Source: an uncultured Flavobacteriales bacterium
GTDB taxonomy: Bacteria > Bacteroidota > Bacteroidia > Flavobacteriales_E > Vicingaceae
NCBI GenBank assembly: GCA_905479915.1
Contig: CAJQOH010000019.1
Span: forward strand, 1-62,968
Direction: 5' to 3'
DNA length: 62,968 nucleotides
Part shown: positions 6,719 through 27,643 of the stretch, in pieces
Layout of the letters: every line of letters begins with the position of its first letter
Position numbering within the stretch: position 1 is the first letter of the stretch
Notes under the pieces: model-generated
What the model saw: only the letters and a program-made list of their open reading frames with translations
Database searches by the model: none
Told to the model about the DNA's origin: nothing
Program-made: the position numbers and the translations under genes

Positions 6719-6753
6719 AAAAAATCCTCAACTACCTAGTAGTTAAGGCTTTT
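6719..6753 (-). terminator. Rho-independent terminator after the truncated tRNA-Phe
   Basis: Read on the minus strand, a 10-bp stem (one G-T wobble) with a 3-base loop is followed by six T. It lies directly downstream of the truncated tRNA-Phe copy. It resembles the terminator behind the intact tRNA in its outer bases (CCTC/AAGG) but has a different inner stem. Confidence 0.7.
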
Positions 6754-6802
6754 AGTGAGTGGTGCCTCCAGGAATCGAACCAGGGACACATGGATTTTCA
6801 GT
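6745..6802 (-). repeat. Left attachment-site repeat: truncated tRNA-Phe 3' part
   Basis: This is a perfect 58-bp copy of 27556-27613. Bases 6760-6802 (minus strand) are the tRNA-Phe 3' part from inside the anticodon loop through the T arm to the discriminator base. The 5' half of the tRNA is missing here, so it cannot make a functional tRNA. The match ends at base 6802, within the anticodon region, a common crossover point for tyrosine recombinases. Confidence 0.9.
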
Positions 6803-9009: not shown

Positions 9010-9011
9010 TT

Positions 9012-9461: not shown

Positions 9462-9523
9462 TCTGAATTGGTGCTAACAATCAAATAAGTACGACATTGT
9501 ACATATTCAGCTCATAGCTTTAT

Positions 9524-9554: not shown

Positions 9555-9555
9555 T

Positions 9556-10191: not shown

Positions 10192-10209
10192 TGTTCGAAA
10201 ATACTAAAA

Positions 10210-10878: not shown

Positions 10879-10882
10879 TGGG

Positions 10883-12321: not shown

Positions 12322-12914
12322 TTTAAAATCCAATAGACTTTACCCAATTCTTGGTGATAACCATAAATATTAAGATATGATAAACTATTAATTAGAACAA
12401 TATCTCCTTTATTTAAACGATTAATTTGAAAATTCAATTTCACTTTCCATAATTTTTCTGCTCTTGAAATTTGAACATATTCATCTTCATTTGAAAACTC
12501 AATATAATAGTCTAATTTGAGGTAATGCCTCTTAGAATCATCAATAAAGAAAGGAGTTTCAAAAAGCTTTATTAAAACTTCTTTTGAAATTTCACCTAAA
12601 AATAAATCTACTTTAATAGAATCTTTATAATTAATTTGAGGGTCAATTATGTCGCCATATTCATTGAATTGACCTGTATAGAAAGTGTGCTTAAATGGAA
12701 TGACTTCTTTTTTAGAGTCTTTTAATTGATAAAAATATTTATTAGAATCAATTTTTGAAATTTCATCTCCAAATTCATCATATTTGTAAACTTGCTTTAT
12801 CAATGGGGTTTTGAAGCCGACACCATTTAAATGAAGTTCTGTATTACCGACATCTTGCCCAAATCCATTGAATCCAACAAGTATTAATAACGCTATGATG
12901 ATTAGCTTTTTCAA
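12318..12914 (-). CDS. Secreted protein, type-B leader, unknown
   Basis: A 198-residue exported protein whose TTG start overlaps the upstream TGA (TTGA). The leader MKKLIIIALLILVGFNGFGQ is nearly the same in DNA as those of three other island genes. The mature part contains 'YKYDEFGDEISKIDSNKYF', a pattern that recurs loosely in the island lipoprotein at 21,583 ('YKLDEYGDTVMKATY'), so the two may be distant relatives. No known domain is recognised. Confidence 0.68.
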   Translation of the reverse strand: MKKLIIIALLILVGFNGFGQDVGNTELHLNGVGFKTPLIKQVYKYDEFGDEISKIDSNKYFYQLKDSKKEVIPFKHTFYTGQFNEYGDIIDPQINYKDSIKVDLFLGEISKEVLIKLFETPFFIDDSKRHYLKLDYYIEFSNEDEYVQISRAEKLWKVKLNFQINRLNKGDIVLINSLSYLNIYGYHQELGKVYWILK

Positions 12915-13441
12915 TTTGTTTCACCCTTAATAGTATCTTTTATTTCTATTAAGCCTTTGAATAATTCCGAAGAGTTGTTAATTGACGAATGATTTATTAA
13001 AATAGAATCTGGTATCTCTTGAAATCCCGATAATTCGAAGTTGAATATAAAATAACAATCACAAGCTACAGCCTCAGCATAAAAGGATGTATCTCCATTT
13101 TCTTGGATAGTAAGCCCTACAGGTTTAGACTTTATAATCAAATTTAATATTCCATTTTCATATTCAAATCCAGCCATATTATTTTTTACAGAAGTTGCAC
13201 AATTTGTCCAATGGCTTATTTCCAACTTCAAAATATTAGAGTCTAAAGATTGGTCTATTATTCTTCCATTCTCATAATGGCAATCTTTCTGACATTCAGT
13301 AACATCAAACTTTTTAACTCGAACGTCTGTAAGTTTTTGAATTTGGAGTTCAATAATTTCTTGCTTTTCAGTTTCTGTAATTGTATGCCCACATCCAGCA
13401 GCAACAATTAAAATGACCAATATGATAAACAGTTTTCTCAT
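12911..13441 (-). CDS. Lipoprotein, type-A leader, unknown
   Basis: A 176-residue lipoprotein with lipobox AAGC in the leader MRKLFIILVILIVAAGCG. The start overlaps the upstream stop (ATGA). The mature domain has two close cysteine pairs, ECQKDC and ACDCYF, which may form disulfides or bind metal. The leader DNA matches that of the lipoprotein ending at 17,499, although the mature proteins differ. Function unknown. Confidence 0.7.
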   Translation of the reverse strand: MRKLFIILVILIVAAGCGHTITETEKQEIIELQIQKLTDVRVKKFDVTECQKDCHYENGRIIDQSLDSNILKLEISHWTNCATSVKNNMAGFEYENGILNLIIKSKPVGLTIQENGDTSFYAEAVACDCYFIFNFELSGFQEIPDSILINHSSINNSSELFKGLIEIKDTIKGETN

Positions 13442-13953
13442 TTATGTTTATTTGATATTATCGTTATTATTTCTAACAGTTCCTCCAACTCAGATAGTTC
13501 ACCTATTGGTTGGTGAGCATATAAAGAGATGACGGTTCCATCATTATTAACTTTTGTACTGATGAAAACATTATAGCTTAGCATAAGGTATTCGAATTTA
13601 GCACTGCTAAGTAATTTCTCTGTTTGAGAATTAGTTTTTACAGAATACTTTTTACGAATTTCATTCTTTATTCCAAATCCAAATAATTTACTCCATTTAC
13701 TCTTAGGGAAGAAATGAATTGGTTTTATTTCATTTGGGATTATAAGCATTATTGTATATACAATATCTTCGGTTAATAAAACTGCTGCACCTAATTGGTA
13801 GTTTGCAACTAATTTTATTTTATGTTCATTAAGTGCAGCCTCGCAATATACTCTTTGACTCTTTAATTCCCCGTGTGAAGTATGGGCTGACTTGTAAGCA
13901 TCTTCATAATACTTACCATCAATCTTAGGTGATATTTCTTGTATTAAATTCAC
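13438..13953 (-). CDS. Hypothetical cytoplasmic protein
   Basis: A 171-residue soluble protein starting at a GTG only five bases after a TTACTTTG promoter element, so the mRNA is nearly leaderless. It begins MNLIQEISPKIDGKYYEDAY and has the look of a compact alpha/beta protein ('IVYTIMLIIPNEIKP', 'FEYLMLSYNVFIS'). No family is recognised. It is the first gene of the long leftward block and is co-regulated with the divergent small membrane-protein gene through the shared promoter repeat. Confidence 0.6.
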   Translation of the reverse strand: MNLIQEISPKIDGKYYEDAYKSAHTSHGELKSQRVYCEAALNEHKIKLVANYQLGAAVLLTEDIVYTIMLIIPNEIKPIHFFPKSKWSKLFGFGIKNEIRKKYSVKTNSQTEKLLSSAKFEYLMLSYNVFISTKVNNDGTVISLYAHQPIGELSELEELLEIITIISNKHK

Positions 13954-13955
13954 CC

Positions 13956-14010
13956 CACCAAAGTAACGAATAATCTGAACTTTCCAGATTTTGAGTAGTT
14001 TTATAAGATG
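13956..14010. promoter_or_regulatory. Divergent promoter repeat, copy 1
   Basis: This 55-bp segment differs from 18807-18861 at only two bases. On the minus strand it gives TTACTTTG just upstream of the GTG at 13953. On the plus strand it gives TAGTTTTA just upstream of the ATG at 14008. It probably drives both divergent blocks with very short leaders. Confidence 0.6.
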
Positions 14011-14271
14011 TTTACTGTATTAATAATATTGATTAGTTTAATTTATTTATTCTGTTGTTGGTATTTTATAAAACTAATATGGAGTTCTTCAATTATTAAT
14101 CTAAAACAAAAAAAGCTAAATACTATAATGGTAATTCTATTGCCTATGGTCTGGTGTCCACTTATCTATTCAATTGTAAAATCAAAAACAGGAGGTTCTC
14201 ACGACCCTAACAACAGAAAAGATAGGAATAGTAAGAGAGGGTGGATTATACAAGAAGTAGGTGAAGGGTGA
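14008..14271 (+). CDS. Small two-helix membrane protein, unknown
   Basis: An 87-residue protein with two hydrophobic helices ('VLIILISLIYLFCCWYFI' and 'IMVILLPMVWCPLIYSIV') and a basic tail 'DPNNRKDRNSKRGW'. The second helix followed by a short polar tail resembles the PLDc_N-type membrane module often seen in toxin-immunity pairs, but this is only a likeness. It is the only plus-strand gene between two leftward blocks, and it starts right at the divergent promoter repeat. Confidence 0.6.
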   Translation: MFTVLIILISLIYLFCCWYFIKLIWSSSIINLKQKKLNTIMVILLPMVWCPLIYSIVKSKTGGSHDPNNRKDRNSKRGWIIQEVGEG

Positions 14272-14730: not shown

Positions 14731-15098
14731 GCATAATGTGGTTTACAATTATTTAATAGGAAGAATTCTTCACTAGGGATGTCGTCTAAGTCTCTATCGT
14801 ACCAACTATCTTCAACTTCATTAATTAATACTAGACAATTATTTAAAGTGTTTATTGCTTTTAAGTTGTGTTTATCTATGAAGTTATTAATAGATGATGA
14901 ATCTATTTGAAATTTAAACAATTTCCCATACTCGATATATGGATAATAATCAAGTCTTTTGGTATTTGGTGGTAAATCAATTTGAGTAATTTCAATCATC
15001 CAGTCTAAAGCCTCTTGTTCTTTTTTAGATGCCTTGTTTGAATCACCACACCCCATAGCAACAATCAAGAGGATTAGATATGTTAGAATGTTCTTCAT
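14574..15098 (-). CDS. Lipoprotein, upstream half of a frameshifted gene
   Basis: The leader MKNILTYLILLIVAMGCGDS has a clear lipobox and overlaps the upstream stop (ATGA). The first 130 residues look natural. After the AAA AAA codons at the A7 run the frame reads a low-quality tail ending QIIVK, while the -1 frame carries on as a sensible protein. The true product is probably the 275-residue fusion, made by ribosomal or polymerase slippage or restored by a one-base length change in the run. Function unknown. Confidence 0.6.
   Translation of the reverse strand: MKNILTYLILLIVAMGCGDSNKASKKEQEALDWMIEITQIDLPPNTKRLDYYPYIEYGKLFKFQIDSSSINNFIDKHNLKAINTLNNCLVLINEVEDSWYDRDLDDIPSEEFFLLNNCKPHYAWNIMIKKVRVSYGTRYYTLMLVVMNQTVTNLEKKKQLTKILQKFTFQIIVK
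14709..14715 (-). other. A AAA AAA slippery heptamer
   Basis: Seven T on the plus strand read as A AAA AAA in the lipoprotein frame. This fits the X XXY YYZ rule for -1 frameshifting and is also long enough for polymerase slippage or length variation. The -1 frame beyond it is open for another 145 codons. Confidence 0.5.
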
Positions 15099-15892
15099 TT
15101 TAGTTCAAAATCAGAGTTATGAGTTGCAATTACTTCGATGTTTCCAGTTCCGTCTAAATAATATCCATCATCTATTTCGCCACTCTTAAGGTTAATAATC
15201 CAATTATGACCAGCATTGTAATCAAATCCTTTCAAGTAAAGGATAGAGTCAGATTTGGTGTCTTTACAAATTCTAAAATATGGTCCATTTCCAAACCAAA
15301 AATCAAATTCAAAATCATTCCCCGTTCTTTTATCTGTTATTTCAATCTCTGCTTCGACTTGCCAATCTAAAAATGTTGGGATAGTATAGGTGTTGACTTC
15401 AAATTCAAATTCAGAATTGCTAAAATCTGCTGAATTACTAACTTGGTATTCTCCAAAACCTCCAACTAAGAAGACTGCAAATAGAATAATGTAGCTTATC
15501 TTTTTATGGCGTAATAAATTTTGAGATTTGAAGCTATATAACAGATAGTTTATTCCAATCGCTGGCAAACCTATCAAAAGTCCAACTTGAAACCAATACC
15601 AGCCTCGGTTAACTATAATCGGGTAGGTGAACAGAACCATTACGATTATCCAAAAGAAAAAATGGTAGCGATAATCAATCGTAATACTTTTTAGAATTTT
15701 CCAACAAAGAATAATGGATGCTATAATAGTGATTATCCAACTTGCACTCAATAGTATGTTGTCGAGTAAATCATCAATGCCCCACCAATCTACAAACATA
15801 GAATAGTCATTCATTTGAAAAGTATGAAATGAAACAACAATCCATAAAGCACTTAGAAAACCTATAACTACTATTCCTATAATTTTATTCAC
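15095..15892 (-). CDS. Membrane protein with periplasmic C-terminal domain, unknown
   Basis: A 265-residue protein. The N-terminal 160 residues contain four or five helices ('IIGIVVIGFLSALWIVVSF', 'ASWIITIIASIILCW', 'WIIVMVLFTYPIIV', 'ISYIILFAVFLVGGF'). The last 100 residues form a soluble beta-rich domain ('DWQVEAEIEITDKRTG', 'YFRICKDTKSDSILYLKGF'). It starts with GTG two bases after the upstream stop and overlaps the next gene by four bases. No family is recognised. Confidence 0.65.
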   Translation of the reverse strand: MNKIIGIVVIGFLSALWIVVSFHTFQMNDYSMFVDWWGIDDLLDNILLSASWIITIIASIILCWKILKSITIDYRYHFFFWIIVMVLFTYPIIVNRGWYWFQVGLLIGLPAIGINYLLYSFKSQNLLRHKKISYIILFAVFLVGGFGEYQVSNSADFSNSEFEFEVNTYTIPTFLDWQVEAEIEITDKRTGNDFEFDFWFGNGPYFRICKDTKSDSILYLKGFDYNAGHNWIINLKSGEIDDGYYLDGTGNIEVIATHNSDFELK

Positions 15893-15893
15893 T

Positions 15894-16301
15894 TTAGTTT
15901 TCTAATAATTTGTTTGGCAAATCATAACTTGCTGCATACTGTAATTCTTCACTTCTTTTTTGAAATTCTTTAAATGCTTTTCTATACCATTTTGAATCGT
16001 TAGGAGTTGTGTTAAAATCCTCACAAACCATTACATCATAAAATTCTCCGTTCTTCCAAGGTTCAATACCCATTATACCAATACCTTTTTCTTCAACTCT
16101 ATTAAGTACAATCTGAAAATCTGATTCAGAGAAATAGTAAATTGATTCAGAGTCAAAACCATCATTAAGATTCTCAAGTCCCACAAATACATTGGTCTTT
16201 AAATAGTCGAGTTTAGTCATATGGTCAATATTATTAGGTTCATCACTGCCACATCCAGTGGAAACAATCAAAATCATTAGATATGTAAGTAGGTTTTTCA
16301 T
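15894..16301 (-). CDS. Lipoprotein, type-A leader, unknown
   Basis: The ATG at 16301, preceded by AGGA, gives a 135-residue lipoprotein with leader MKNLLTYLMILIVSTGCGSD; a longer frame upstream lacks a signal and is rejected. The leader is almost the same as those at 15,098 and 22,200 (shared 'LLTYLILLIV' type). The mature part includes 'YFSESDFQIVLNRVEEKGIG' and a helical end. Function unknown. Confidence 0.65.
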   Translation of the reverse strand: MKNLLTYLMILIVSTGCGSDEPNNIDHMTKLDYLKTNVFVGLENLNDGFDSESIYYFSESDFQIVLNRVEEKGIGIMGIEPWKNGEFYDVMVCEDFNTTPNDSKWYRKAFKEFQKRSEELQYAASYDLPNKLLEN

Positions 16302-16305
16302 TCCT

Positions 16306-16698: not shown

Positions 16699-17499
16699 TT
16701 ATGGGGTCATAGGACTATTGACATTATGAGTTGGTTCAGTATACCTATAATACTGAATTATTCTTGAGTTTAAAGATAACTTAGAATAGCCACCCCTCAT
16801 CCCAATATAAATTTCATCGTTACTTTTTACTACGATTGAATTTGGGTATAATGAACCCCAGAATGCCTTTTCAACTATGTTGTCCTTCTTGAAATCTTCA
16901 ATTACAGTAAACATTTGATGACCCGCAATTAAAATTTTGTTTCTATAAATTGCCATTGATTCTGGAGCACTGTCTAATTTCATTACTTCTTCATAAGTAA
17001 ATTCATTTCCATTTCTTCTTAATTCAAAGATTGCTCCACCAGAATCCATCCCGTGAGCGACCCCCACCATAAAGTAAATTTTTTCTTTGAAATTGAAAAC
17101 AAAAATAATTGGGACATCCCAGATTCGAACCGTATCAGCATTTTCTTTTTTAGAAATGTAATTTAAACCACCTCCAAATTCACCTCTATTGATTATTTCA
17201 AGTTTACCATCATCTAATTCGAAATATGATTCTTGAAAGTTTGGTTCTGCTAAAACTAACTTATTTTTTTCCAACTTTACGGCTACCTCAATACTTGAGT
17301 TATTCATTTTTAGCCATAAATCATAATCCTCTAATTGACTTTGATTTAACTCTGTAAAGTTTTCAAAGGGATATAATATATTACTCGCACCACGTATAGG
17401 TCTTATTGATTCATTATCATTATACACAGAATTTGGAGTGGAGTCACCACACCCAGCAACAATAATTAAAACAACCAATAGGATAAATAGTTTTTTCAT
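16699..17499 (-). CDS. Lipoprotein with propeller-like repeats, type-A leader
   Basis: A 266-residue lipoprotein; leader MKKLFILLVVLIIVAGCGDS, start overlapping the upstream stop (ATGA). The mature part is beta-rich with strand patterns such as 'IIFVFNFKEKIYFMVGVAHG', 'SMAIYRNKILIAGHQMFTVI' and 'SIVVKSNDEIYIGMRGGYSK', which suggests a small propeller. There are no catalytic motifs. It may act as a binding protein at the periplasmic face. Confidence 0.68.
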   Translation of the reverse strand: MKKLFILLVVLIIVAGCGDSTPNSVYNDNESIRPIRGASNILYPFENFTELNQSQLEDYDLWLKMNNSSIEVAVKLEKNKLVLAEPNFQESYFELDDGKLEIINRGEFGGGLNYISKKENADTVRIWDVPIIFVFNFKEKIYFMVGVAHGMDSGGAIFELRRNGNEFTYEEVMKLDSAPESMAIYRNKILIAGHQMFTVIEDFKKDNIVEKAFWGSLYPNSIVVKSNDEIYIGMRGGYSKLSLNSRIIQYYRYTEPTHNVNSPMTP

Positions 17500-18332
17500 T
17501 TTTTATAAACTACAAATTTTTGATTCTCTCTAATAAATAATTTATCAGATACTATGTGAGAACCATTAGTGTTAATGTCTTCTACAATGTTCTTAAGTTT
17601 CAGAATATTCTCTTTATCATTACTTCCAGTTATCATTAGCATATCTCTTGAAGGTATGCCAATTACAAAATCACCATCAACATCAAAATTATCCTTAGTC
17701 CATATATCATCTAATAATATCAAACTCGATTCATAATCACCTCCAGCAGTTAACATATATAATCCCGTATTTCCAGTTTTTTCTATTTCTGGAAGAATAA
17801 TATTAAGATTTGCTATAGAAAGCCCTTTAAGAGAATCAACAGCTATGTTAAGAATTGCAATATCTTCTTTTGTGAATTGGCTGATGGTTCTTTCATTATC
17901 CTCAGCATAAATAATAATAAGGTCATCGTTATATTCTTCAAAAATATTACTCACAGTGTCTGTGTTATTCAACCTTTTTATTTCAGCTAAGTATCTTTTA
18001 TCTCTAATTAGGGGCACAATCTTATTATGGTTAATCTTCTTTTTTGGTTTAAATAAGTCAAGAGAAGATTCTGCATAATTTTCAATAATATTATCCAAAC
18101 CAGAAGGGTCATTCTTGTAATCGGCATATGCATTGTCAAGGAAATGGGTGTATTCTTCATTGTTGATTTCAGTTTTTAACTCTAAACCGTTAATCTCTTT
18201 CACGACCACTTCTGTATTTTTGTTACTTAAAGATTCTATCCATTTTTCAGAAAATTCATCTTCGGTTAATGTATCATTCATAGAACAAGAAAATATTGTT
18301 AAAACGGATAATATGATAAACAGTTTTTTCAC
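17496..18332 (-). CDS. Lipoprotein, type-A leader, unknown
   Basis: A 278-residue lipoprotein with leader MKKLFIILSVLTIFSCSMND and a GTG start five bases after the upstream stop. The first 14 codons match the leader DNA of the lipoprotein at 13,441 closely, then the sequences part. The mature protein ends with a segment 'SRDMLMITGSNDKENILKLK', resembling the end of DUF1444-like proteins ('DMLMVTGSND' type), so a distant DUF1444 relationship is possible. Role unknown. Confidence 0.65.
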   Translation of the reverse strand: MKKLFIILSVLTIFSCSMNDTLTEDEFSEKWIESLSNKNTEVVVKEINGLELKTEINNEEYTHFLDNAYADYKNDPSGLDNIIENYAESSLDLFKPKKKINHNKIVPLIRDKRYLAEIKRLNNTDTVSNIFEEYNDDLIIIYAEDNERTISQFTKEDIAILNIAVDSLKGLSIANLNIILPEIEKTGNTGLYMLTAGGDYESSLILLDDIWTKDNFDVDGDFVIGIPSRDMLMITGSNDKENILKLKNIVEDINTNGSHIVSDKLFIRENQKFVVYKK

Positions 18333-18336
18333 TTTA

Positions 18337-18804
18337 TTATTTCTTTTTCATATTTACTAATGTAAAGTATACAATACAAATTCCGTAAATGATGTATTCA
18401 ACTTTACTAACGACTAATCGTTGTTGTGAAGTATATGCTCTACTTAAAAAATAATCTTTTGATTCATCGGCATCGAAAAAGGTATTTCCACATACAAGAG
18501 GATAAGGCTCTGAATCAACTAAAAATGTGCTTACAAATAATAGAGCAACCGTTGTTAGAGATAATATTATTAGGGACTTACTGTTGTCGATATAATCTGG
18601 ATTTAGACTTAATCTCTTTATAAAAAAGAATATCAAATAAACCTCTAATACTACCAGTGGAAGTCTAAACCAAGGACCATATTCCTCTAATAGGCTTATA
18701 AAGAATTCCTCAAATATAGGATTTACAATAAGCCTTAAGGAATGAATACCGAGAACGACTAACAATCCAAAAATGACAATTCTATTGACTTTTAACTTTT
18801 CCAC
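18337..18804 (-). CDS. Membrane protein, unknown
   Basis: A GTG at 18804 gives 155 residues. A longer reading to 18837 would place the promoter element inside the gene and is less likely. About four helices are visible ('IVIFGLLVVLGIHSLRLIV', 'LPLVVLEVYLIFFFI', 'SLIILSLTTVALLFVSTFL', 'YIIYGICIVYFTLV'). It is the first gene of the second leftward block and begins a few bases from the TTACTTTG element of promoter copy 2. Function unknown. Confidence 0.6.
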   Translation of the reverse strand: MEKLKVNRIVIFGLLVVLGIHSLRLIVNPIFEEFFISLLEEYGPWFRLPLVVLEVYLIFFFIKRLSLNPDYIDNSKSLIILSLTTVALLFVSTFLVDSEPYPLVCGNTFFDADESKDYFLSRAYTSQQRLVVSKVEYIIYGICIVYFTLVNMKKK

Positions 18805-18806
18805 TT

Positions 18807-18861
18807 CACCAAAGTAACGAATAATCTGAACTTTCAAGATTTTGAGTAGTTTTATAGGATG
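18807..18861. promoter_or_regulatory. Divergent promoter repeat, copy 2
   Basis: This matches 13956-14010 at 53 of 55 bases while the surrounding genes are unrelated. TTACTTTG faces left toward the GTG at 18804, and TAGTTTTA faces right toward the lipoprotein gene at 18906, which here lies 45 bases further on. Confidence 0.6.
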
Positions 18862-18905
18862 AGATAGAGCCTAGTGTTTGTTCTATTGTTTTAATTGTTT
18901 TAGAT

Positions 18906-19850: not shown

Positions 19851-20597
19851 ATGGGGCTAATAGATAAATTGTTTGGTAAAAAACCAAGAGTATTCAAGCT
19901 TAAGCCTAATGAAATAAAGGAAATCATTCCGAATAAAGGTGGTTGTCTTGCTACTGATAAGATTACTTATGACGGAATGAAAGTAGGTTATATGTATCGT
20001 GAGGAAGCTAATAATGATATGGATAATGGATGGCGTTTTTTCTCTGGAACAGAATCTCAAGATTATGTGGATGATGCAAACAATACTAAGGTTTACGATA
20101 TGAATACCATAGCAAACTATGACCAAGCTATAATAGCTTATATAGATTTTCCAGTTGGTAGTGAGTTAGAAAGAATTCCTAATACAGATGAGTTTAAGAA
20201 TGTAGAAAATTCTAGATTAAAAAATGATGAGGGCAAGGAAGATTATATTGAGATTTTAATGAAATCTTCAAGTATGTTATCTGATAAAGGGGTTAAGGTC
20301 AGCTTGTACAAGAATTTATCAGAAGAAGTTCCAGATGAAATATTAATGATAGATGAAGTCATAAGTGTGTCGGGTAAAGATGAGGCTTGGGATAACGTTA
20401 GGGAGTATCTGGAGGGTTATAGTGTCTATCCAATTGCTGAGGTTTTAGGTGGTAGTCTTATTGTTGTTGGGTATAGTAGAGCTAATAAAGGAATCATATA
20501 TTACCATTCTTTCGATTTTGGTCTATTTGAGTTGGATAAATCATATGATGAATTCACGAAAAAATTAATAGACGCTAAGATTCCATTCTATGATTAA
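19851..20597 (+). CDS. DUF2185 (Imm33-like) plus SUKH-like fusion, immunity protein
   Basis: A 248-residue cytoplasmic protein. Residues about 28-110 match the DUF2185/Imm33 pattern: 'NKGGCLATDKITYDG', 'VGYMYREE', 'DNGWRFFSG', 'NTIANYDQAIIAYIDFPVGS'. Residues about 130-245 look SUKH-like: 'GYSVYPIAEVLGGSLIVVGY', 'IIYYHSFDFGLFELDKSYDE'. Both are known immunity modules of polymorphic toxin systems. No toxin is encoded next to it, so it is an orphan here. Domain calls are by remembered motif, strong for the first domain and moderate for the second. Confidence 0.78.
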   Translation: MGLIDKLFGKKPRVFKLKPNEIKEIIPNKGGCLATDKITYDGMKVGYMYREEANNDMDNGWRFFSGTESQDYVDDANNTKVYDMNTIANYDQAIIAYIDFPVGSELERIPNTDEFKNVENSRLKNDEGKEDYIEILMKSSSMLSDKGVKVSLYKNLSEEVPDEILMIDEVISVSGKDEAWDNVREYLEGYSVYPIAEVLGGSLIVVGYSRANKGIIYYHSFDFGLFELDKSYDEFTKKLIDAKIPFYD

Positions 20598-20859: not shown

Positions 20860-21581
20860 TTTCCTTTTTTTGTATAATCATCACTGATAACTTTTATTGT
20901 TATCGTTCTATTTTCTTGAGAAACTTCAGCTTCTGTCATTTCTTTTTCAAAACTCCTTTTTTTATAATTTCTAACTCCACCATCAACAATAACCATTCTG
21001 TCTTTTTCAATAGATTTAGCACTCAATCTCATTTTAAGTTCTTCTACTCTTTCTATGGATACAGTAATGTTCTCGGTGCTATCTCTATAACCAACAAACT
21101 GAACTATAATGGTTGGGTTATCTATCATTATACTAATTAAGAAGGAATCAATTTCTATAGAATCAACCATAGGTTTTTTTTTATTGATATCAAAGTAATA
21201 CCTTGGAAGAGGTTTTGTTGGCGGGCAAAATTGCTGTAAAGCATATTCGTGAAAATACTTCTTACTCTTAATCTCCCCAACTGTTGTTTCCATTCCTTTT
21301 GCACTTAAATAACCTACTTTTATCACTTCTGTTTTATATGAAGTGTTTGGCTTCAGCTTGAAAGTAGATGTATTTCCATTAACATCTGTTGTGTCAGTTT
21401 GTTCAGACCCATCACTACCATATAATTTAACAGAAACTCCTTCTATATATTTTTCGTTATCAACGCCTTTTACGACTACATCTAATATAAATATTAAAGA
21501 GTCCTTGTTATGAGTATCTTTCTGCCCAAATCCATTGAATCCAACAAGCAGTAAAAATGATATGATGATGAGGTTTCTCAT
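20856..21581 (-). CDS. Secreted protein: carboxypeptidase-like fold plus degenerate OmpA-like domain
   Basis: The start at 21581 gives leader MRNLIIISFLLLVGFNGFGQ (type B) and 241 residues. Mature residues about 30-95 resemble a carboxypeptidase-regulatory-like fold ('VSVKLYGSDGSEQTDTTDVN', 'LKPNTSYKTEVIKVGYLS'). The C-terminus resembles an OmpA-type domain ('NPTIIVQFVGYRDST', 'SIERVEELKMRLSAKSIEKD', 'SQENRTITIKVIS'), but the peptidoglycan-binding Asp/Arg pattern is weak. Peptidoglycan or envelope binding is a guess. The upstream stop lies two bases before the start. Confidence 0.68.
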   Translation of the reverse strand: MRNLIIISFLLLVGFNGFGQKDTHNKDSLIFILDVVVKGVDNEKYIEGVSVKLYGSDGSEQTDTTDVNGNTSTFKLKPNTSYKTEVIKVGYLSAKGMETTVGEIKSKKYFHEYALQQFCPPTKPLPRYYFDINKKKPMVDSIEIDSFLISIMIDNPTIIVQFVGYRDSTENITVSIERVEELKMRLSAKSIEKDRMVIVDGGVRNYKKRSFEKEMTEAEVSQENRTITIKVISDDYTKKGK

Positions 21582-21582
21582 T

Positions 21583-22200
21583 TTAATCTTCTTTTTCATA
21601 TTTTCTGTTATAGAAATCCTTATCTGATTGAACTGCTTCAACAAGTAGGTCTAAAACTGGATTTTCTTTTTGGTGGGAAAAGCCAATTAATTTGGTTTTT
21701 TTCTTTCGTGTTAAAATTAAGATTAAGCCATATTTATCAGTATAAAACTCAAAAACGTTTGGTTTTTGTGATTTTGTCCAAATCCAACGAGGCTGTCTCA
21801 GTACTCTGTGTTTTTTACCATTTATTTCAAATGTTTTCGATGTTCCTAAGTAATACTGTGCTGAGTCGAACCCTCGAATTGTATCCCCTACTAAATCATA
21901 GTTTATATATGTCGCTTTCATCACAGTGTCTCCGTATTCATCGAGTTTATAAGGCTCATAGAATTCATAAATTTTCATAGTATCCCCAGGGTTGTAGTCA
22001 TTTATATATGTTAGCAAGAAGTTGCCATTTGACACGTTAACACTGTTTGTATAAAACCAAGTGCTGTCATTTGAAAAATTTGATTCATATATTGCGTGTT
22101 GGATAGGGAGTGAATTTAGTTTTTCATATTTCTTTAGCTCTTCAGTTGAGCATCCAGCTACAATTATTAATAGGATTAGATATGTTAGGGGCTTTTTCAT
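21583..22200 (-). CDS. Lipoprotein, type-A leader, unknown
   Basis: A 205-residue lipoprotein; leader MKKPLTYLILLIIVAGCSTE, lipobox VAGC. The mature domain is beta-rich ('DSTWFYTNSVNVSNGNFLL', 'TFEINGKKHRVLRQPRWIW', 'FYTDKYGLILILTRKKKT'). The 'YEPYKLDEYGDTVMKATY' pattern is loosely shared with the secreted protein at 12,318. No family is recognised. Confidence 0.66.
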   Translation of the reverse strand: MKKPLTYLILLIIVAGCSTEELKKYEKLNSLPIQHAIYESNFSNDSTWFYTNSVNVSNGNFLLTYINDYNPGDTMKIYEFYEPYKLDEYGDTVMKATYINYDLVGDTIRGFDSAQYYLGTSKTFEINGKKHRVLRQPRWIWTKSQKPNVFEFYTDKYGLILILTRKKKTKLIGFSHQKENPVLDLLVEAVQSDKDFYNRKYEKED

Positions 22201-22206
22201 TTTTAT

Positions 22207-22737
22207 TTATTCAATCCAAGTTGTCTCAAATATATGTTCTATTTCATTTAATTCATTAAAAAAGAAAAGATGCATCATTCCATAGGTGTGCCTTGGCTTT
22301 TTATAAATTCTACTTGTGTATACTGATAGTACATTCTTTTCTTTTCTATAAAAATTTATATGAATTTTTGGATTTCTATTTACCGATAAATTATTAAGAC
22401 AGTTCAATGTGTTTTTAGTTGTGTCAGTGAGGGATTCTTTTTCTAATTGTCTCACCTCTGGCATAAAAACAGAAGTATCTTGGGCAAAAAGCAATGATTT
22501 ATCTTTAAAACCAAGTTTAATTGCGATATAGTCATAAGTCAAAAATGGAGTTATACCACCTTTACCTACCTCTTCATTAATACTGAACTTTAGTTTTACT
22601 TTGTTATAATAAGAATTGAAACTTGTATCTGATTTAAAATATTCAATTACTTTCTTGTATTGTTCACAGTTACTTTCTTGTCCAAATCCGTTGCTTCCAA
22701 TAAGCAGTAAAAATGATATGATGGCGATGCTCTTCAC
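22207..22737 (-). CDS. Secreted protein, type-B leader, unknown
   Basis: A 176-residue exported protein with leader MKSIAIISFLLLIGSNGFGQ; the GTG start overlaps the upstream TGA (GTGA). The mature part has a pair of cysteines ('SNCEQYKKVIEYF' and 'NTLNCLNNLSV') and a beta-rich end 'MMHLFFFNELNEIEHIFETT'. The leader DNA is the fourth member of the NGFGQ family. Function unknown. Confidence 0.66.
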   Translation of the reverse strand: MKSIAIISFLLLIGSNGFGQESNCEQYKKVIEYFKSDTSFNSYYNKVKLKFSINEEVGKGGITPFLTYDYIAIKLGFKDKSLLFAQDTSVFMPEVRQLEKESLTDTTKNTLNCLNNLSVNRNPKIHINFYRKEKNVLSVYTSRIYKKPRHTYGMMHLFFFNELNEIEHIFETTWIE

Positions 22738-22952
22738 TTTAGTTTTTTCTTAAATGCAATTACAGTTAGAATTAAAATAAGTGAATTAAGTCCTAATAGA
22801 ATCCACCAAATGTTTGACATAAAATCCGTTTCACAAGGAGGGCAAACAACTTCTGGAAGGCAAGGCTCACAATTAATAGTATGCGAATCGAACAAGTACT
22901 TTCCCATCAGAACTATGTTAAGACCTATCCATATAGCAACAATCTTCTTCAC
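22734..22952 (-). CDS. Small two-helix membrane protein with Cys-rich loop
   Basis: A 72-residue protein starting at a GTG next to promoter copy 3. Two helices ('IVAIWIGLNIVLMGKYLF' and 'IWWILLGLNSLILILTVIAF') flank a periplasmic loop with four cysteines in the pattern CEPCLPEVVCPPC. The CxxC pairs suggest metal binding or a redox role. No family is known to me. It heads the third leftward block. Confidence 0.6.
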   Translation of the reverse strand: MKKIVAIWIGLNIVLMGKYLFDSHTINCEPCLPEVVCPPCETDFMSNIWWILLGLNSLILILTVIAFKKKLK

Positions 22953-22955
22953 TCA

Positions 22956-23004
22956 TCTAAAGTAACGAATAATCTCAACTTTTAATATTTATAGTATTTT
23001 TAGA
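22956..23004. promoter_or_regulatory. Divergent promoter repeat, copy 3 (partial)
   Basis: The first 24 bases (AAAGTAACGAATAATCT and on) match copies 1 and 2 with one change. The right half has diverged and reads TTAATATTTATAGTATTTTT, which is similar to the segment before the gene at 27,032. It lies between divergent genes, like the other copies. Confidence 0.5.
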
Positions 23005-23006
23005 CT

Positions 23007-23318
23007 TTGTTCGGAATAGGGAAATATAACTTTAAAGAATTAACAGAAGATACTATTATCTTTACAACTGGTTTTACGGGTCGTAAGTTGAGAGTTGGCT
23101 CAAAGTTTATTGAAGAAATTTATGTACATCGAATTCAAGGGAAATTACACCAATATATAATTGTAACTATAATTAAACAGTTTTCAATCCCAAATGAGAG
23201 TTTGGAACTAGGTGGTATTAAGGCATTCGCTATTAAGAATGATATTACTTTGATTGAAGAAGAAATCTATCACGGTGGAGAACAAGTTGTTTTGAACCAA
23301 TCTAGTAAAACTGTTTAA
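23007..23318 (+). CDS. Hypothetical cytoplasmic protein
   Basis: A 103-residue frame from a TTG start (MFGIGKYNFKELTED); no ATG is available early in the frame. The protein has strand-rich stretches ('TIIFTTGFTGRKLRVGSKFI', 'QYIIVTIIKQFSI') and no signal peptide. It opens the rightmost block and abuts the next lipoprotein gene, whose ATG overlaps its stop (TAATG). The exact start is uncertain; function unknown. Confidence 0.5.
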   Translation: MFGIGKYNFKELTEDTIIFTTGFTGRKLRVGSKFIEEIYVHRIQGKLHQYIIVTIIKQFSIPNESLELGGIKAFAIKNDITLIEEEIYHGGEQVVLNQSSKTV

Positions 23319-23890
23319 TGAAAACTAAACTCATCATACTACTAATAGGAATCGCATTTGTTGGGTGTGGAAATCAGTATTCTGAGAATAATACATTTTC
23401 TCGTTCTGATGAGGTTATTGAGGTTGAAGCTGGAGGGAAATCTGAGATAGATGAATCAAGAATTAGGTATGAGCCCAATGAATACGAAGAAAAGCTTTTC
23501 GATACGATTTTAGGTGTTGATTCAAATATTCAGTTACAAATAAAATATTATTCTCTAATGGATAAAGGTTTTATTGTTCCAATGGAATTTGAAGATACGG
23601 ATTATATGCATTACAGGGATTTTGCTGGGGATGTTAAGTTTAGAATTGGTGATAAGGAAATATATGCAGAATCAATTCATAAGGAGTTGTTTTCTGAGAT
23701 GATTGATGATGTTGAGTTTCTTCCTTTAGCATACTTAAGTAGAGTTAGATTTGATAGTTATGATGATGTAGCTGGAGAGTTAAAGTTAGGCTGTATGGTT
23801 GTAATGATAGAGTCTTGTTACGCTTATTTCTTTCAAGTTATAGTTGATAAAGAAGGGAATTATAGAGTAATTGAAATAGAGGAGGAATGA
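23318..23890 (+). CDS. Lipoprotein, GIAFVGCG leader, unknown
   Basis: A 190-residue lipoprotein with leader MKTKLIILLIGIAFVGCGNQ. Its leader is the first of four related ones in this block. The mature part is acidic, beta-rich at the end ('LGCMVVMIESCYAYFFQVIV'), with two cysteines there. It overlaps the next gene by four bases. Function unknown. Confidence 0.66.
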   Translation: MKTKLIILLIGIAFVGCGNQYSENNTFSRSDEVIEVEAGGKSEIDESRIRYEPNEYEEKLFDTILGVDSNIQLQIKYYSLMDKGFIVPMEFEDTDYMHYRDFAGDVKFRIGDKEIYAESIHKELFSEMIDDVEFLPLAYLSRVRFDSYDDVAGELKLGCMVVMIESCYAYFFQVIVDKEGNYRVIEIEEE

Positions 23891-24348
23891 AAAAAAGAAA
23901 AAAGCTAACAAATATTGGGTTCTCTTCAATTGAGACCAATGAGGAATGGCGAAATACGCTAAAGCTATCAGAAGTATTTTACGCTTTAGGAATGGTAGAT
24001 AAGTACTTTTTTTGGAAGATGACTCCTGTTTTTAATGATAAGTACGCACAAGTAAATATTTGGTTTACAAACAAAAAAACTAAAGATACTGATATATACA
24101 CAAGTCCATTGACGAAATCATTAGGCTTACTGGGGTATTATATCGACCTTGATAAAGTAAGAGATATTAAAAACGATAGGGAATTATATGAATTCGTTTT
24201 TAACCTCTATTGTTCAATTAATAAATTAATATTTCATTCTCTCACTATTGATTTTAATGAGGTTGAGGTGCAATCTGTATATAATGAGATTGAATCAATA
24301 CTAGATACTAACCCAACTTTTATAGTTAAACCCATTGATAGTTTTTAA
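23887..24348 (+). CDS. Hypothetical cytoplasmic protein
   Basis: A 153-residue soluble protein starting MKKRKKLTNIGFSSIETNEE with no export signal. Stretches include 'LKLSEVFYALGMVDKYFFWK' and 'EFVFNLYCSINKLIFHSLTI'. The ATG overlaps the upstream stop (ATGA). It is a candidate cytoplasmic partner of the exported neighbours, and no family is recognised. Confidence 0.58.
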   Translation: MKKRKKLTNIGFSSIETNEEWRNTLKLSEVFYALGMVDKYFFWKMTPVFNDKYAQVNIWFTNKKTKDTDIYTSPLTKSLGLLGYYIDLDKVRDIKNDRELYEFVFNLYCSINKLIFHSLTIDFNEVEVQSVYNEIESILDTNPTFIVKPIDSF

Positions 24349-24351
24349 TAA

Positions 24352-24708
24352 ATGCTAAATAGATTTTTAATACTACTAATTGGAATTGGCTTTGTTGGGT
24401 ATGGGAAAATTTATGCTCAATCCAATGAAACTTATACTGGAGTTATTGTAGGAAATGATACACTTTTTACAGTGCCGTACGATATGTGCCCAGAACTGGA
24501 AGGTGATTATGATTTGTTGGTTGAGCATCATAGGTATATTTTGAGCACCAATAAGAAGAAAAATAAAGAGTTGAAATCGTTACTTGGTAAAACAGTTACT
24601 GTAGTTCTTAAACCAATTGCAGAAAGAGTAAAGAAGAAAGATTTAGATATGACTTGTAATTACTATAAATTAATCAAGATTATTTCAAAAAGTAAAGATG
24701 CTAAATAG
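24352..24708 (+). CDS. Small exported protein, unknown
   Basis: A 118-residue exported protein; leader MLNRFLILLIGIGFVGYGKI continues to YAQS, so the lipobox cysteine seen in its relatives is replaced by tyrosine and signal peptidase I cleavage before Gln is more likely. The mature part contains 'TYTGVIVGNDTLFTVPYDMC' and 'SLLGKTVTVVLKP', a small beta-barrel look. Its last codons (DAK, stop) fall inside the next leader repeat. Function unknown. Confidence 0.62.
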   Translation: MLNRFLILLIGIGFVGYGKIYAQSNETYTGVIVGNDTLFTVPYDMCPELEGDYDLLVEHHRYILSTNKKKNKELKSLLGKTVTVVLKPIAERVKKKDLDMTCNYYKLIKIISKSKDAK

Positions 24709-24748
24709 ACTTTTTATACTGCTAATTGGAATTGCCTTTGTTGTTTAA
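24698..24748 (+). CDS. Stranded leader peptide, 16 residues
   Basis: ATG to TAA encodes MLNRLFILLIGIAFVV, the shared leader of this block cut off exactly where the lipobox should follow. Its start overlaps the end of the preceding gene, and its stop overlaps the next start (TAATG). It is either a decayed lipoprotein leader left by recombination or a translational-coupling leader for the 533-residue gene. Confidence 0.5.
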   Translation: MLNRLFILLIGIAFVV

Positions 24749-26349
24749 TGGAAAGCTTGAACAAAGAATATAAGATTGCAAAAGGATGGAAGATATTTAT
24801 CTTAATATTTCTTCCATTGTTTTTTGTATTATTCGCTTGGTTGTTTTACTATTCAGCAACAGAGGAACCATTTAAAATGAGTAAAGGAATTGGAATGATT
24901 CTTTTATCTGTTGTAATGTTAGTATTCTCTGTAATTGGATTGATTGATACATTTATTTTTAAGTTGATTTTTAAATTTGACAGATTAATCAAGATAAACA
25001 TATTAGGGGCAAAGGAAATCTTATTCAGTGACATAAAGGGAGTTAAAATAAAAGATAACTATGTTTATGTATACCCGAAGAATGAATCACAGAAAACGTT
25101 AAGAATCAGTACTTATTTGGAAAACAAAAATGAATGGGTTGGTTTTTTATTAAGTGAATTTAGTGATTTAGATGAGGATGAATATGTCGAGAACGAAGAT
25201 AGACTTTATACTGACGTGAGATATGGTAAAACCCAAGAAGAGCGTAATGTTGTTATAAAAAAGACAAAACGATTAACTAAAATATTGAACTATACTGGAA
25301 CCGCAATTGGATTGTGGTTTTTGTTTAGTCCATCTCCATATAATTTATTGTTAATAGCCAATGTTTGCTTGCCTGTAATGGGCTTGTTTATTATCTATAG
25401 GTATAATGGTTTAATAAAAATAATCAAAGCGGATAATAGCCCATATCCAGCTTTAACCTCATCTCTAACAATACCTGTTGCTGCAATTGTAATTAGAGCA
25501 TTACTGGATTTTGAGGTTGTTAGTTATGAATCTCTTTGGGTTCCTACACTAATTTTGTCCAGTATAGCTATTTTTCTATTATTGCGAAGTGGCAGTTCTG
25601 AGTTTAAAATCACTAATAAAGTTGAATTAATATTTTCCTATTTGTATTTGTTAATTGGAGTTGGTGTATTTGTATTTTGTAGTATTATTTTGATTAATTG
25701 TGCATTTGATGAATCTGAGCCAATTATATATGAGGTTGAGGTTTTAAGTAAGAGAACAAGTAAAAGCAGAAGGTCGCCAAATAGGTATATTATCACAATA
25801 AATGCTAAAAGCGAAGGTTTTGAAGAGATGGAAATAAGTACTTCTGAATATTTGTATAACAATGTTGAATCTGGAAATATGATTAATGCTTACTTAAAAA
25901 AAGGTATGTTGAATGTCCGCTGGGTATTTCTTGGTGAAACAAATGGTAATACAAATAGTGATGATTATTTTTATGTTAATGTGACAGGGACAGTTTTTTA
26001 TACGGGTAATGATACAGTAAGCGATTATCAGATATATGTTTTGGAAAATGGTGATACCATACAATCAATAAATAATACAACAAGTAAGTTTGATGTTCCT
26101 TTGGCATTAGGTAAGAAGTATCTTTTAGGATTTAAAAAAGAAGGTTATGTTCCAAAGCATCTAATTGTTGATGTAGTTGATTGTGGGGAGTATGATGATT
26201 ATAAATATGGTTTTGAGTTTCCAATGGAATTAGAGTTAACAGAAGGAGATAGTCGAAAGACCTCAAAAGAAGTTGCCTATTTAAGATATTATGAAGAAAC
26301 GGGTTATATTGACTACCATTTAGATTCAAATTTAATAAATGCTAAATAG
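24748..26349 (+). CDS. Multi-pass membrane protein with PH-like and carboxypeptidase-like domains
   Basis: A 533-residue protein. Two helices near residues 14-60 are followed by a PH-like soluble stretch ('ILFSDIKGVKIKDNYVYVYP'). About five more helices follow ('ILNYTGTAIGLWFLF', 'LTIPVAAIVIRALL', 'LIGVGVFVFCSIILINCAF'), then a DUF3592-like segment ('YEVEVLSKRTSKS', 'YLYNNVESGNMINAYLK'). Residues about 405-500 look like a carboxypeptidase-regulatory-like fold ('KYLLGFKKEGYVPKHLIVDV'). The last residues INAK come from the next gene's leader repeat. Function unknown. Confidence 0.66.
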   Translation: MESLNKEYKIAKGWKIFILIFLPLFFVLFAWLFYYSATEEPFKMSKGIGMILLSVVMLVFSVIGLIDTFIFKLIFKFDRLIKINILGAKEILFSDIKGVKIKDNYVYVYPKNESQKTLRISTYLENKNEWVGFLLSEFSDLDEDEYVENEDRLYTDVRYGKTQEERNVVIKKTKRLTKILNYTGTAIGLWFLFSPSPYNLLLIANVCLPVMGLFIIYRYNGLIKIIKADNSPYPALTSSLTIPVAAIVIRALLDFEVVSYESLWVPTLILSSIAIFLLLRSGSSEFKITNKVELIFSYLYLLIGVGVFVFCSIILINCAFDESEPIIYEVEVLSKRTSKSRRSPNRYIITINAKSEGFEEMEISTSEYLYNNVESGNMINAYLKKGMLNVRWVFLGETNGNTNSDDYFYVNVTGTVFYTGNDTVSDYQIYVLENGDTIQSINNTTSKFDVPLALGKKYLLGFKKEGYVPKHLIVDVVDCGEYDDYKYGFEFPMELELTEGDSRKTSKEVAYLRYYEETGYIDYHLDSNLINAK

Positions 26350-26998
26350 ACTTTTCATACTCCTAATTGGAGTTGCTTTTATTTCCTGTGGAGATATTGT
26401 GACAGATGAAGATGTGTCAACTTTAGTTGGTTTGTCACATTCAGAGAATGTTGTTGTTAATGGAAAAGGGAGTGATTTAATTATTGAAATATATAATAGT
26501 GAGTTAGATAAGGAAGAAAGAAGTATTTACCATACAACAATAGCTTTATTTACATTTGATAAGGCAAACAAAAAGAGAAATACCTTGTCCTTAGATGGTG
26601 AGAGCTCCATAAATTTTATTGACTCTAATAAAACTGTAGACAGTTATTCAATTGTAAATAGTGAAATGTTTAAGATAAGTCAAATCTATGATGACTTGTT
26701 AATTCTACTTGAAGGTATATGTACTCAAGATTATAAAGAAGTTTATTCTTTGATTGATGAAGATGTTCTGAGCGAAACAAGTAGGGATGAAGTTGCCAAT
26801 GTTTTAATTGAGAGTGATTTATGCAAAAACCTTGACGAATATTTAATTTATGGGTTTAATAAGGAAAAGAATGATGGGGTTAGGTTGGCTTGTTTATATG
26901 TGAATTTAGAATATACCGATAGTGATGATAGGAATATAATCTTTATTTATTCTGCTGAATCATTAAAACTTATTGGAGTAGAAGAGTTATCATCATAA
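26339..26998 (+). CDS. Lipoprotein, shared leader, unknown
   Basis: A 219-residue lipoprotein; leader MLNRLFILLIGVAFISCGDI with lipobox ISC. The first eleven bases double as the last codons and stop of the upstream gene in another frame. The mature part is acidic ('VNGKGSDLIIEIYNSELDKE', 'ESDLCKNLDEYLIYGFN', 'IIFIYSAESLKLIGVEEL'). No family is recognised. Confidence 0.66.
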   Translation: MLNRLFILLIGVAFISCGDIVTDEDVSTLVGLSHSENVVVNGKGSDLIIEIYNSELDKEERSIYHTTIALFTFDKANKKRNTLSLDGESSINFIDSNKTVDSYSIVNSEMFKISQIYDDLLILLEGICTQDYKEVYSLIDEDVLSETSRDEVANVLIESDLCKNLDEYLIYGFNKEKNDGVRLACLYVNLEYTDSDDRNIIFIYSAESLKLIGVEELSS

Positions 26999-27031
26999 TC
27001 TTAATTTTTAATATTTTCAGTATTTTAGGGG

Positions 27032-27472
27032 ATGAATAAAGCCAATGTCAACAATATCATTTATGGAGCTATGTTGTTGTTGATTTATACTGCAATCAGC
27101 AAACTTCTCTATAATTTTTCAGTTGATATTGGTGATAAGATGCTCATTCTGTATCAAATAAATTTGCCATTTTTGAAAGTACTGACTGTTCCGGTTAGCT
27201 TGCTCTTAGTTTTTCTCTTTGGTAGACGAATTTATAAAGAGCTTTCAGATGATAGTTTCTCCAATCAATTGTTTACAAAAGTTTTTACACTAACTATAAT
27301 CCTTGTTGGTTTAAGTTATTTTTCTGGTAAATACTTTAATATATTTTATGTATCTGATATGGATTGGGCAAGTGAATTTTCTGTTTATAGTAGAAATATT
27401 GTAATTATGGATGTATGGGAGTATTTCTTAATGTTTATAACAATTTTTTGTATAAAATCTAAGTTAGATTAA
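27032..27472 (+). CDS. Four-helix membrane protein, unknown
   Basis: A 146-residue membrane protein with helices at 'IIYGAMLLLIYTAISKLLY', 'LKVLTVPVSLLLVFLFG', 'VFTLTIILVGLSYFSG' and 'VWEYFLMFITIFCI'. It resembles the four-helix proteins at 10,983 and 18,337 in layout, not in recognisable sequence. A motif like that before 23,007 (TTTTAATATTTTCAGTATTT) lies just upstream. It is the last gene of the island before the tRNA end. Confidence 0.62.
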   Translation: MNKANVNNIIYGAMLLLIYTAISKLLYNFSVDIGDKMLILYQINLPFLKVLTVPVSLLLVFLFGRRIYKELSDDSFSNQLFTKVFTLTIILVGLSYFSGKYFNIFYVSDMDWASEFSVYSRNIVIMDVWEYFLMFITIFCIKSKLD

Positions 27473-27479
27473 CCAAAAC

Positions 27480-27510
27480 TCCACTCCGTTTTCAAAACGA
27501 CTCCACTCCG
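27480..27510 (+). repeat. TCCACTCCG direct repeats, right end of island
   Basis: Two exact copies of TCCACTCCG (27480-27488 and 27502-27510) lie between the last island gene and the tRNA terminator. The same 9-mer and two near-copies are just inside the left end. They are possible arm-type recombinase sites. Confidence 0.4.
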
Positions 27511-27529
27511 TTAAAAAGTGATTAAAACT

Positions 27530-27562
27530 AAAAAAGCCTCGTAAACAATGTTTACAAGGCTT
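27530..27562 (-). terminator. Rho-independent terminator of tRNA-Phe
   Basis: On the minus strand a 13-bp stem (one wobble) with a 3-base loop is followed by five T, directly downstream of the tRNA. Its outer stem bases (AGCCTC/AAGGCT) are like those of the left-end terminator; the inner stem differs. Confidence 0.75.
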
Positions 27563-27613
27563 TTAGTGAGTGGTGCCTCCAGGAATCGAACCAGGGACAC
27601 ATGGATTTTCAGT
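27556..27613 (-). repeat. Right attachment-site repeat within tRNA-Phe
   Basis: This is a perfect 58-bp copy of 6745-6802, covering the 3' 43 bases of the intact tRNA-Phe and 15 bases of its 3' flank. It lies at the tRNA side of the island and keeps the tRNA gene whole. Confidence 0.9.
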
Positions 27614-27643
27614 CCATTGCTCTACCAACTGAGCTAAGGCACC
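27571..27643 (-). tRNA. tRNA-Phe (GAA)
   Basis: The minus strand folds as a complete 73-base cloverleaf. The acceptor stem is GGTGCCT/AGGCACC with discriminator A, the D arm is GCTCAGTTGGTAGAGC, the anticodon stem-loop ATGGACTGAAAATCCAT has anticodon GAA, and the T arm carries GGTTCGATTCC. No 3' CCA is encoded. Its 3' part is duplicated at the left end of the island, which shows it was the integration target. Confidence 0.97.

Follow-up and report, generated by a model that had tools for sequence, protein, structure and literature searches.

We analyzed a 62,968-nucleotide stretch of DNA (the window; contig CAJQOH010000019.1 of assembly GCA_905479915.1) from an uncultured Flavobacteriales bacterium of the Vicingaceae, in which a repeat encoding a signal-peptide leader lies across the borders of neighboring genes between positions 24349 and 26998. 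Its 12-base core, ATGCTAAATAGA, occurs exactly three times in the window, at 24352, 24698 and 26339, the very positions given in the initial annotation of this DNA. The core sits inside a leader of about 48 bases, of which the conserved part covers about 46-50 bases from the ATG. A chance origin was rejected, since 100 dinucleotide shuffles contained a mean of 0.00 copies and a 37-base degenerate pattern built from the three copies found the same three alone, with up to 3 mismatches allowed; the 12-mer at 2 mismatches was at chance level (11 seen, 14.8 expected). A fourth, diverged copy of the same repeat family (D2) starts at 23318 and encodes MKTKLIILLIGIAFVGCG. Three of the six genes of this array (23007-26998) begin with a leader.

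Leader repeats at the gene borders of the flagged array

The reading frames at the two downstream copies agreed with the description in the initial annotation, in which the repeat supplies the terminal codons and the stop of the gene in front. The 118-residue gene runs into the 24698 leader and is closed there by AGT AAA GAT GCT AAA TAG (S-K-D-A-K-stop), and at 26339 the 533-residue gene ends with AAT GCT AAA TAG (N-A-K-stop); the 153-residue gene in front of the 24352 copy is terminated by a separate TAA, 3 bases ahead of the leader. The copy at 24698 consists of the 16 codons of MLNRLFILLIGIAFVV and a stop, and this stop (TAA) shares bases with the start codon (ATG) of the 533-residue open reading frame (ORF) as TAATGG, again as originally described. 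The features of the window are listed in Table 1.

Table 1. Leaders, element P copies and island ends in the window
Feature	Position	Strand	Basis
A leader MLNRFLILLIGIGFVG, start of the 118-residue gene (24352-24708)	24352..24400	+	exact 12-mer, D2 repeat, nhmmer family A
Stranded A leader, 16 codons (MLNRLFILLIGIAFVV) and stop; gives A-K-stop to the 118-residue gene	24698..24748	+	reading frames, nhmmer
A leader of the 219-residue gene (26339-26998); gives A-K-stop to the 533-residue gene	26339..26383	+	reading frames, nhmmer
Diverged A leader MKTKLIILLIGIAFVGCG of the 190-residue gene; TAATG joint	23318..23368	+	D2 repeat, nhmmer
533-residue membrane protein	24748..26349	+	chimera-like, junction near residue 397
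B leader MRNLIIISFLLLVGFNGFGQ	21522..21585	-	repeat families, nhmmer
Other B leaders	12260-12325, 12853-12917, 22676-22741
CD leader MKKLFILLVVLIIVAGCG	17454..17502	-	repeat families, nhmmer
Other CD leaders	13396-13443, 15046-15100, 16249-16302, 18298-18335, 22151-22202
Element P copy 1	13949..14012	+	nhmmer
Element P copy 2	18799..18863	+	nhmmer
Element P copy 3; A array to the right, B/CD array to the left	22947..23013	+	nhmmer E 3e-16, D4 repeat
Partial, diverged P-like stretch, weak	26995..27035	+	D6 repeat, nhmmer E 0.002
Partial tRNA-Phe 3′ end, far island boundary, attL-like	6745..6802	-	58-base exact repeat, D9
tRNA-Phe (27570-27643) with repeat 27556-27613, attR-like	27556..27643	-	ARAGORN, Rfam, repeat

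The initial annotation had proposed to compare the C-termini of homologs of the 118- and 533-residue proteins, and had held that homologs carrying the same terminal residues with no leader behind them would speak against a joint. Among the pairs compared, no relative ending in A-K-stop lacked an A leader behind it. For the 533-residue protein, a 52%-identical relative of its C-terminal domain in genome G010 (L057 2865-3704; relatives are cited by genome, G, and stretch, L) ends in ..GYIDNVLLK-stop, as opposed to ..GYIDYHLDSNLINAK-stop here, and abuts a short leader-like sequence of the other type, a weak match to leader family B (E 0.005). For the 118-residue protein beyond its leader, 60 genomes yielded no usable relative (one match, E=0.004). 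A further pair, not named in the initial annotation, was also compared: the protein at 27032-27472 in the window ends in ..CIKSKLD-stop with no leader, and L052 6083-6580 ends in ..VIKTKSINAK-stop with one. Relatives of the 27032 protein were found in 4 of the 60 genomes including its own, two of them being weak.

Leader families, joints and the proteins behind them

The window holds four leader repeats, two of which were merged into one family, giving families A, B and CD; in the genome of the window, all matches to these families (E≤0.001) lie inside the island that contains the array. For the genus, 39 stretches were searched, each fetched by a match to a leader, to a second element (P) or to the gene neighboring tRNA-Phe, with at least one stretch from each of 14 genomes. 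This yielded 70 leaders (22 A, 29 B and 19 CD) from 8 of the 14 genomes, after the exclusion of nhmmer matches above E 1e-3, of L092 8021, whose start was not resolvable, and of matches in L067 and L088 judged to be ordinary genes; overlapping family matches were merged. Beyond the genus, leader A gave weak matches in 7 of 46 genomes (best E 2e-6), and no array was seen around such matches in the two neighborhoods inspected (L062 and L063). A de novo leader search in 32 fetched stretches revealed one further family, in L080 of genome G009, where three genes of very unlike length (5511, 6632 and 9390) start with approximately MKQVVVILFLLVSNLLVG at 83-94% DNA identity; a pair from L067 turned up by the same search was set aside as simply homologous genes. 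An assembly artifact of one genome is unlikely, since other assemblies also contain these leaders and P, with the caveat that some contigs of relatives (L052, L059 and L085) break off close to a leader.

The 5′ edge of the leaders can close upstream coding sequence in either of the two other frames: ATGCTAAATAG carries stops in both (TAA and TAG), and ACTAAARTGA, where present, places TAA and TGA in the two other frames. The A leaders close the upstream ORF by their own internal stop in 11 of 22 cases (20 have an upstream ORF). Ten of these were scored at offset 11, including L084 8424, which reaches it through a different sequence, ATGAGAAATAA, and L052 8847 was scored at 17 with an earlier start codon chosen. 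Among 119 control genes from 12 stretches, 52 had an upstream ORF and 3 of the 52 had offset 11 (Fisher p 1.3e-5). With the same type of joint at half of the A leaders, the flagged joint is no single accident. The B/CD leaders had offsets of +4 in 26 of 48 cases and -1 in 10 of 48, matching the TGA and TAA of ACTAAARTGA.

The likeness between leaders is sharply bounded. Pairwise identity (21 A, 29 B and 19 CD sequences, in ungapped alignment from the chosen start) was about 0.3 outside, 0.5-0.8 inside and about 0.3 again by base 50-60, the 5′ edge coinciding with the start codon in A and preceding it by about 10 bases in B/CD, and the 3′ edge lying near the signal-peptide cleavage site; mean identity among copies was 61-70%. 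The pN/pS values (non-synonymous over synonymous differences) within genomes were 0.30/0.38 for A, 0.37/0.53 for B and 0.32/0.50 for CD, a ratio of about 0.6-0.8, and were nearly equal between genomes.

These data bear on tandem duplication with fast divergence, in which the signal peptide stays similar while the mature parts diverge, as known for conotoxins, and in which gene overlaps are kept for translational coupling. Leaders that end near the cleavage site are what purifying selection on a signal peptide would give, the genes of one array are co-directional, and overlapping starts and stops are common in operons. Remote kinship of the bodies (the parts behind the leaders) is also possible, given that 19 of 23 scanned leader-borne proteins (all 13 window bodies and 10 in relatives) had no Pfam match at cut-off. 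However, the leaders are hardly constrained as protein, and at such pN/pS ratios ordinary descent from one leader-plus-body gene should leave recognizable bodies, yet none of the 26 pairs of leaders at 85% or higher DNA identity had homologous bodies (BLASTP E 0.01). Unlike families occur under one leader family, the four proteins at cut-off being Peptidase_C92 and DUF1444 (both CD), TPR with TonB_C (B) and TPR (A); a carboxypeptidase-regulatory-like domain in the window gene at 20856 was below the Pfam cut-off. Conversely, homologous bodies do not keep to one leader: 5 of 14 homologous pairs among 61 compared bodies span different leader families, 3 of the 5 involving one TPR/TonB_C protein (L053 8315). 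We therefore regard duplication with divergence as a rather unlikely origin of the arrays.

Breaks within genes point to joining at the leaders. In G010, L056 16438-16917 and L056 5694-6179 share a membrane stretch (73% identity over 64 residues), after which the former stops at a leader (..YPILKKDAK-stop) and the latter reads on as ..YPLLKNNGKYVF.. (..KNNGKYVF..). At the break point, ATGGTAAATA in the longer gene faces ATGCTAAATA of the leader, a microhomology of 9 out of 10 bases; with exact copies masked, such 9-of-10 matches to leader sequence occurred at 6 of 94,010 positions. Window gene 23007-23318, which begins at element P, matches only the part beyond this break, so that three gene combinations (L056 16438, L056 5694 and window 23007) break at one and the same place. 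The 533-residue protein is itself probably a chimera, fused near residue 397, judging from its relatives: residues 1 to about 397 correspond to complete stand-alone ORFs of 407 amino acids in a Sporocytophaga metagenome-assembled genome (L013) and 391 amino acids on a Haliscomenobacter plasmid, and it is residues 398-523 that match the domain in L057. The initial annotation had called the flagged site a frozen recombination joint. The unrelated bodies behind closely similar leaders and the leader found at a gene break in G010 support the joint, whereas "frozen" is not established, because selection for translational coupling could also have preserved the overlapping starts.

Short leaders, of which the copy at 24698 is one, were found at 9 of the 70 leaders (ORF below 60 codons). 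Two of them, L085 102 and L052 14049, are located at contig ends, and the others are L053 1077 and 5408, L056 16448 and 17701, L092 7928 and L059 4087. The 24698 leader could have a function of its own, as a leader peptide through which translation of the 533-residue gene is regulated or coupled, as its TAATG stop-start overlap and a 16-codon leader of the same type in L059 might suggest. None of the six short leaders of the relatives just named is followed by a long ORF with an overlapping start, except for an 83-codon TTG frame at L053 5408 that was judged not to be a gene, and an Rfam scan of 6700-27700 matched no RNA family except tRNA, making a regulatory peptide very unlikely. The two short leaders in L053, of family B, run straight into a direct repeat (T) of 60-66 bases, copies of which lie at islet-like borders in G009 (L053 1140-1205, 5471-5530 and 11285-11347). 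The third of these copies lies near a gene that we take from its sequence to be a phosphoglycerate mutase gene, and one further copy of T lies in G002 (L071 2994-3056).

Element P, tRNA-Phe islets and a proposed reassortment at gene starts

The arrays are headed by element P, a sequence of about 62 bases that in most cases separates divergent genes and reaches close to the start codon on either side. Bacteroidota promoters follow the pattern TAnnTTTG with TTG upstream, and P, which resembles this pattern on both strands, may act as a bidirectional promoter-like hub. The fetched stretches contained 25 matches in 8 genomes, 20 of them with E<1e-4, and a genome search found P in 10 of the 14 genomes of the genus and in none of 32 others of the family. 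Leader family depends on the side of P: of the 47 leaders that have a P copy no more than 6 kb behind them, those of family A are all on its sense side (12 of 12, at 7 P copies) and those of B/CD all on the opposite side (35 of 35, at 15 P copies). On stretches linked to tRNA-Phe or to a fragment of it, the A side of P faces tRNA-Phe in 13 of 13 copies, 3 of which are weak (E>1e-4), and it does so in 3 of 3 more copies in L053 if their location is taken from the mutase gene. In L055 (G009), a leader and P cluster at 5700-11800 was not seen beside tRNA-Phe, and its P copies point both ways (2 and 1).

The island of the window, about 20.8 kb, lies at the 3′ end of tRNA-Phe and is bounded by a 58-base exact repeat of that end; the far copy was first considered a simple duplicated tRNA, a reading that was dropped in favor of an island end. 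Its G+C content is 30.5%, with 34.0% and 33.3% in the flanks. Further tRNA-Phe 3′ fragments stand beside arrays in G010 (L056 4088-4145 and 9304-9338), where they enclose an islet of about 5 kb made up almost entirely of an A array, P and a B/CD array, and in G005 (L084 8866-8923); G011 (L070) has two fragments, and no leader was found there. The interval between tRNA-Phe and the mutase gene is occupied by arrays interspersed with other genes in G010, and by arrays in G009 too, where contiguity is presumed because the contigs are separate; in G006 it contains a single leader gene, and in G002 no leader gene at all. Several genomes carry, near tRNA-Phe and downstream of their A arrays, an end sequence containing ACTCCACTCC.. 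motifs (window 27471-27570, L053 5545-5619 and 9526-9603), and two Fic-domain genes lie between the array islets of G010 (L056 9717-10847 and 13085-14197).

Such ends could suggest dedicated site-specific shuffling, with a tyrosine recombinase of the island acting on P, leaders or tRNA-Phe-type ends and moving bodies as cassettes. Movement of cassettes by a recombinase is known for integrons and suspected for recombinase-associated acquired interbacterial defence (rAID) arrays. The tRNA-Phe repeats at several islets, the uniform orientation of P on the linked stretches, the direct repeats T in L053 (1140, 5471 and 11285) and a piece of integrase beside an array are consistent with it, the last being a 139-residue ORF at a contig end (L052 118-537) with only Arm-DNA-bind_5, the nearest trace of an integrase that we found. 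Shuffling of this kind fits the insertion of islets, not the joints inside genes, since leader copies average 61-70% identity and RNAalifold found no conserved fold in the leaders of any of the three families. No integrase or recombinase was recognized in a Pfam scan of 30 island proteins, with five ORFs of 72-152 residues unscanned. We consider recombinase-driven shuffling unlikely.

The data are probably best explained by tRNA-Phe islets that accreted and by genes for exported proteins that were reassorted at short conserved gene starts. Islets would have been inserted one after another at tRNA-Phe in a single orientation, each with a central promoter-like P and two divergent gene arrays, many of whose genes start with a leader encoding a signal peptide, A on one side of P and B/CD on the other. 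Coding sequence joined in front of a leader in either of the two other frames would be closed within a few codons, and the next protein would receive its start and export signal. Leaders and P would thereby serve as shared patches at which unrelated bodies join or are swapped, through homologous or microhomology-driven recombination. At 24698, a leader may have been joined directly to a body with its own start, leaving a 16-codon leader peptide over. It is conceivable, though doubtful, that the leader is a genus-specific reading-frame punctuation, spread in mobile tRNA-Phe islets around a bidirectional promoter, that turns arbitrary coding fragments into exported proteins and so generates new secreted genes.

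Several points weigh against reassortment at the leaders. Recombination is traced in sequence only, no event having been observed; the break with microhomology was seen at a single joint, L056, and its direction is unproven, because the longer gene may itself be a fusion, window 23007 also breaking there. Leaders from one genome resemble each other no more closely than leaders from different genomes do, and recent gene conversion within genomes is accordingly not supported; the ungapped alignments understate the identity of some pairs, for example L054 11791. As for the B/CD joints, the +4 offset (ATGA/GTGA) also occurred in 4 of the 52 controls, such overlaps being common in operons generally, and CTAAA precedes the start in only 21 of 48 leaders. 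In addition, 23 of the 70 leaders lack a P copy in the 6 kb behind them, the lack of a recognized integrase in the island counts here as well, and the leader and P counts are no unbiased survey or census, since the stretches were picked by matches.

If reassortment at the leaders is correct, recombination at stop-bearing signal-peptide DNA would offer bacteria a simple route to new exported proteins and operons, and the origin of orphan secreted genes could be put to the test by comparing joints among closely related strains. It would also explain odd C-terminal residues (A-K, L-K) and leftover ORFs of 16 codons that gene callers could misread.

Comparison with known gene arrays

No description of leader-joined arrays turned up in our search of the open-access literature, as far as the accessible portions of the texts extend. 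Integrative genomic islands borne on tRNA genes are characterized by repeats of the tRNA 3′ end, an integrase and tandem accretion. The 58-base repeat at both ends of our island and the several fragments in relatives resemble them, whereas no integrase was recognized among the scanned proteins and leader-joint arrays lie outside that definition. Integron gene cassettes, which depend on an integron integrase and on attC sites folding as single strands, are likewise modular arrays with joints at gene borders; they differ from our arrays in that no conserved fold was found (RNAalifold on leaders alone) and no integrase was recognized in the island of the window. The Vpma and Vsp genes of Mycoplasma switch expression by site-specific inversion among related genes. 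As far as the accessible descriptions go, these surface lipoprotein genes also have conserved 5′ ends and variable bodies, while the bodies here are unrelated and stand in array order, with P fixed in orientation to tRNA-Phe.

Immunity-like genes are present in the island, namely RraB/DUF695 (7516-8373), SMI1/KNR4 (8398-9009 and 9012-9461) and Imm33 (19851-20594), all of them without an A, B or CD leader; PADLOC matched one SMI1-like protein among 10 given. No immunity-like protein was recognized in five scanned genes of the flagged A array, so a role of the arrays in conflict between bacteria is only a guess.

The rAID arrays of Bacteroidales are defined, in the accessible part of their description, by a tyrosine recombinase, short co-oriented genes (about 100-300 codons), an intergenic motif, G+C content below 41% and orphan immunity proteins (PMC12247911). 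Our arrays share with them, within the same part of that source, short co-oriented genes in Bacteroidota, low G+C content and repeats at gene borders. Gene size and orientation agree in the A array at 23007-26998, in the B/CD arrays and in relatives, the 533-residue gene excepted; the G+C content of the island is also below 41%, a feature that does not discriminate here because the flanks are similarly low. By contrast, no tyrosine recombinase was recognized among the 30 scanned island proteins, and the repeat is coding, with overlapping or abutting genes, which sets it apart from the rAID motif as described; P is intergenic but stands at array heads, unlike a motif between genes. Our arrays also diverge around P, and none of the 23 leader-borne proteins matched an Imm or SUKH family at cut-off, DUF1444 being of unknown function. 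We did not assign the arrays to rAID, since the recombinase and the intergenic motif, two defining features, were not found. Heterogeneous polyimmunity loci, known in Bacteroidota (PMC3482391), are likewise rows of unrelated small genes that differ between relatives, and Imm33, SMI1/KNR4 and RraB/DUF695 genes are present in the same island as our arrays. These genes have no leaders here, and the accessible part of that source does not mention shared DNA leaders. Within the portions of the literature covered, the published systems that come closest to the leader-joined arrays of this island are rAID arrays and polyimmunity loci.

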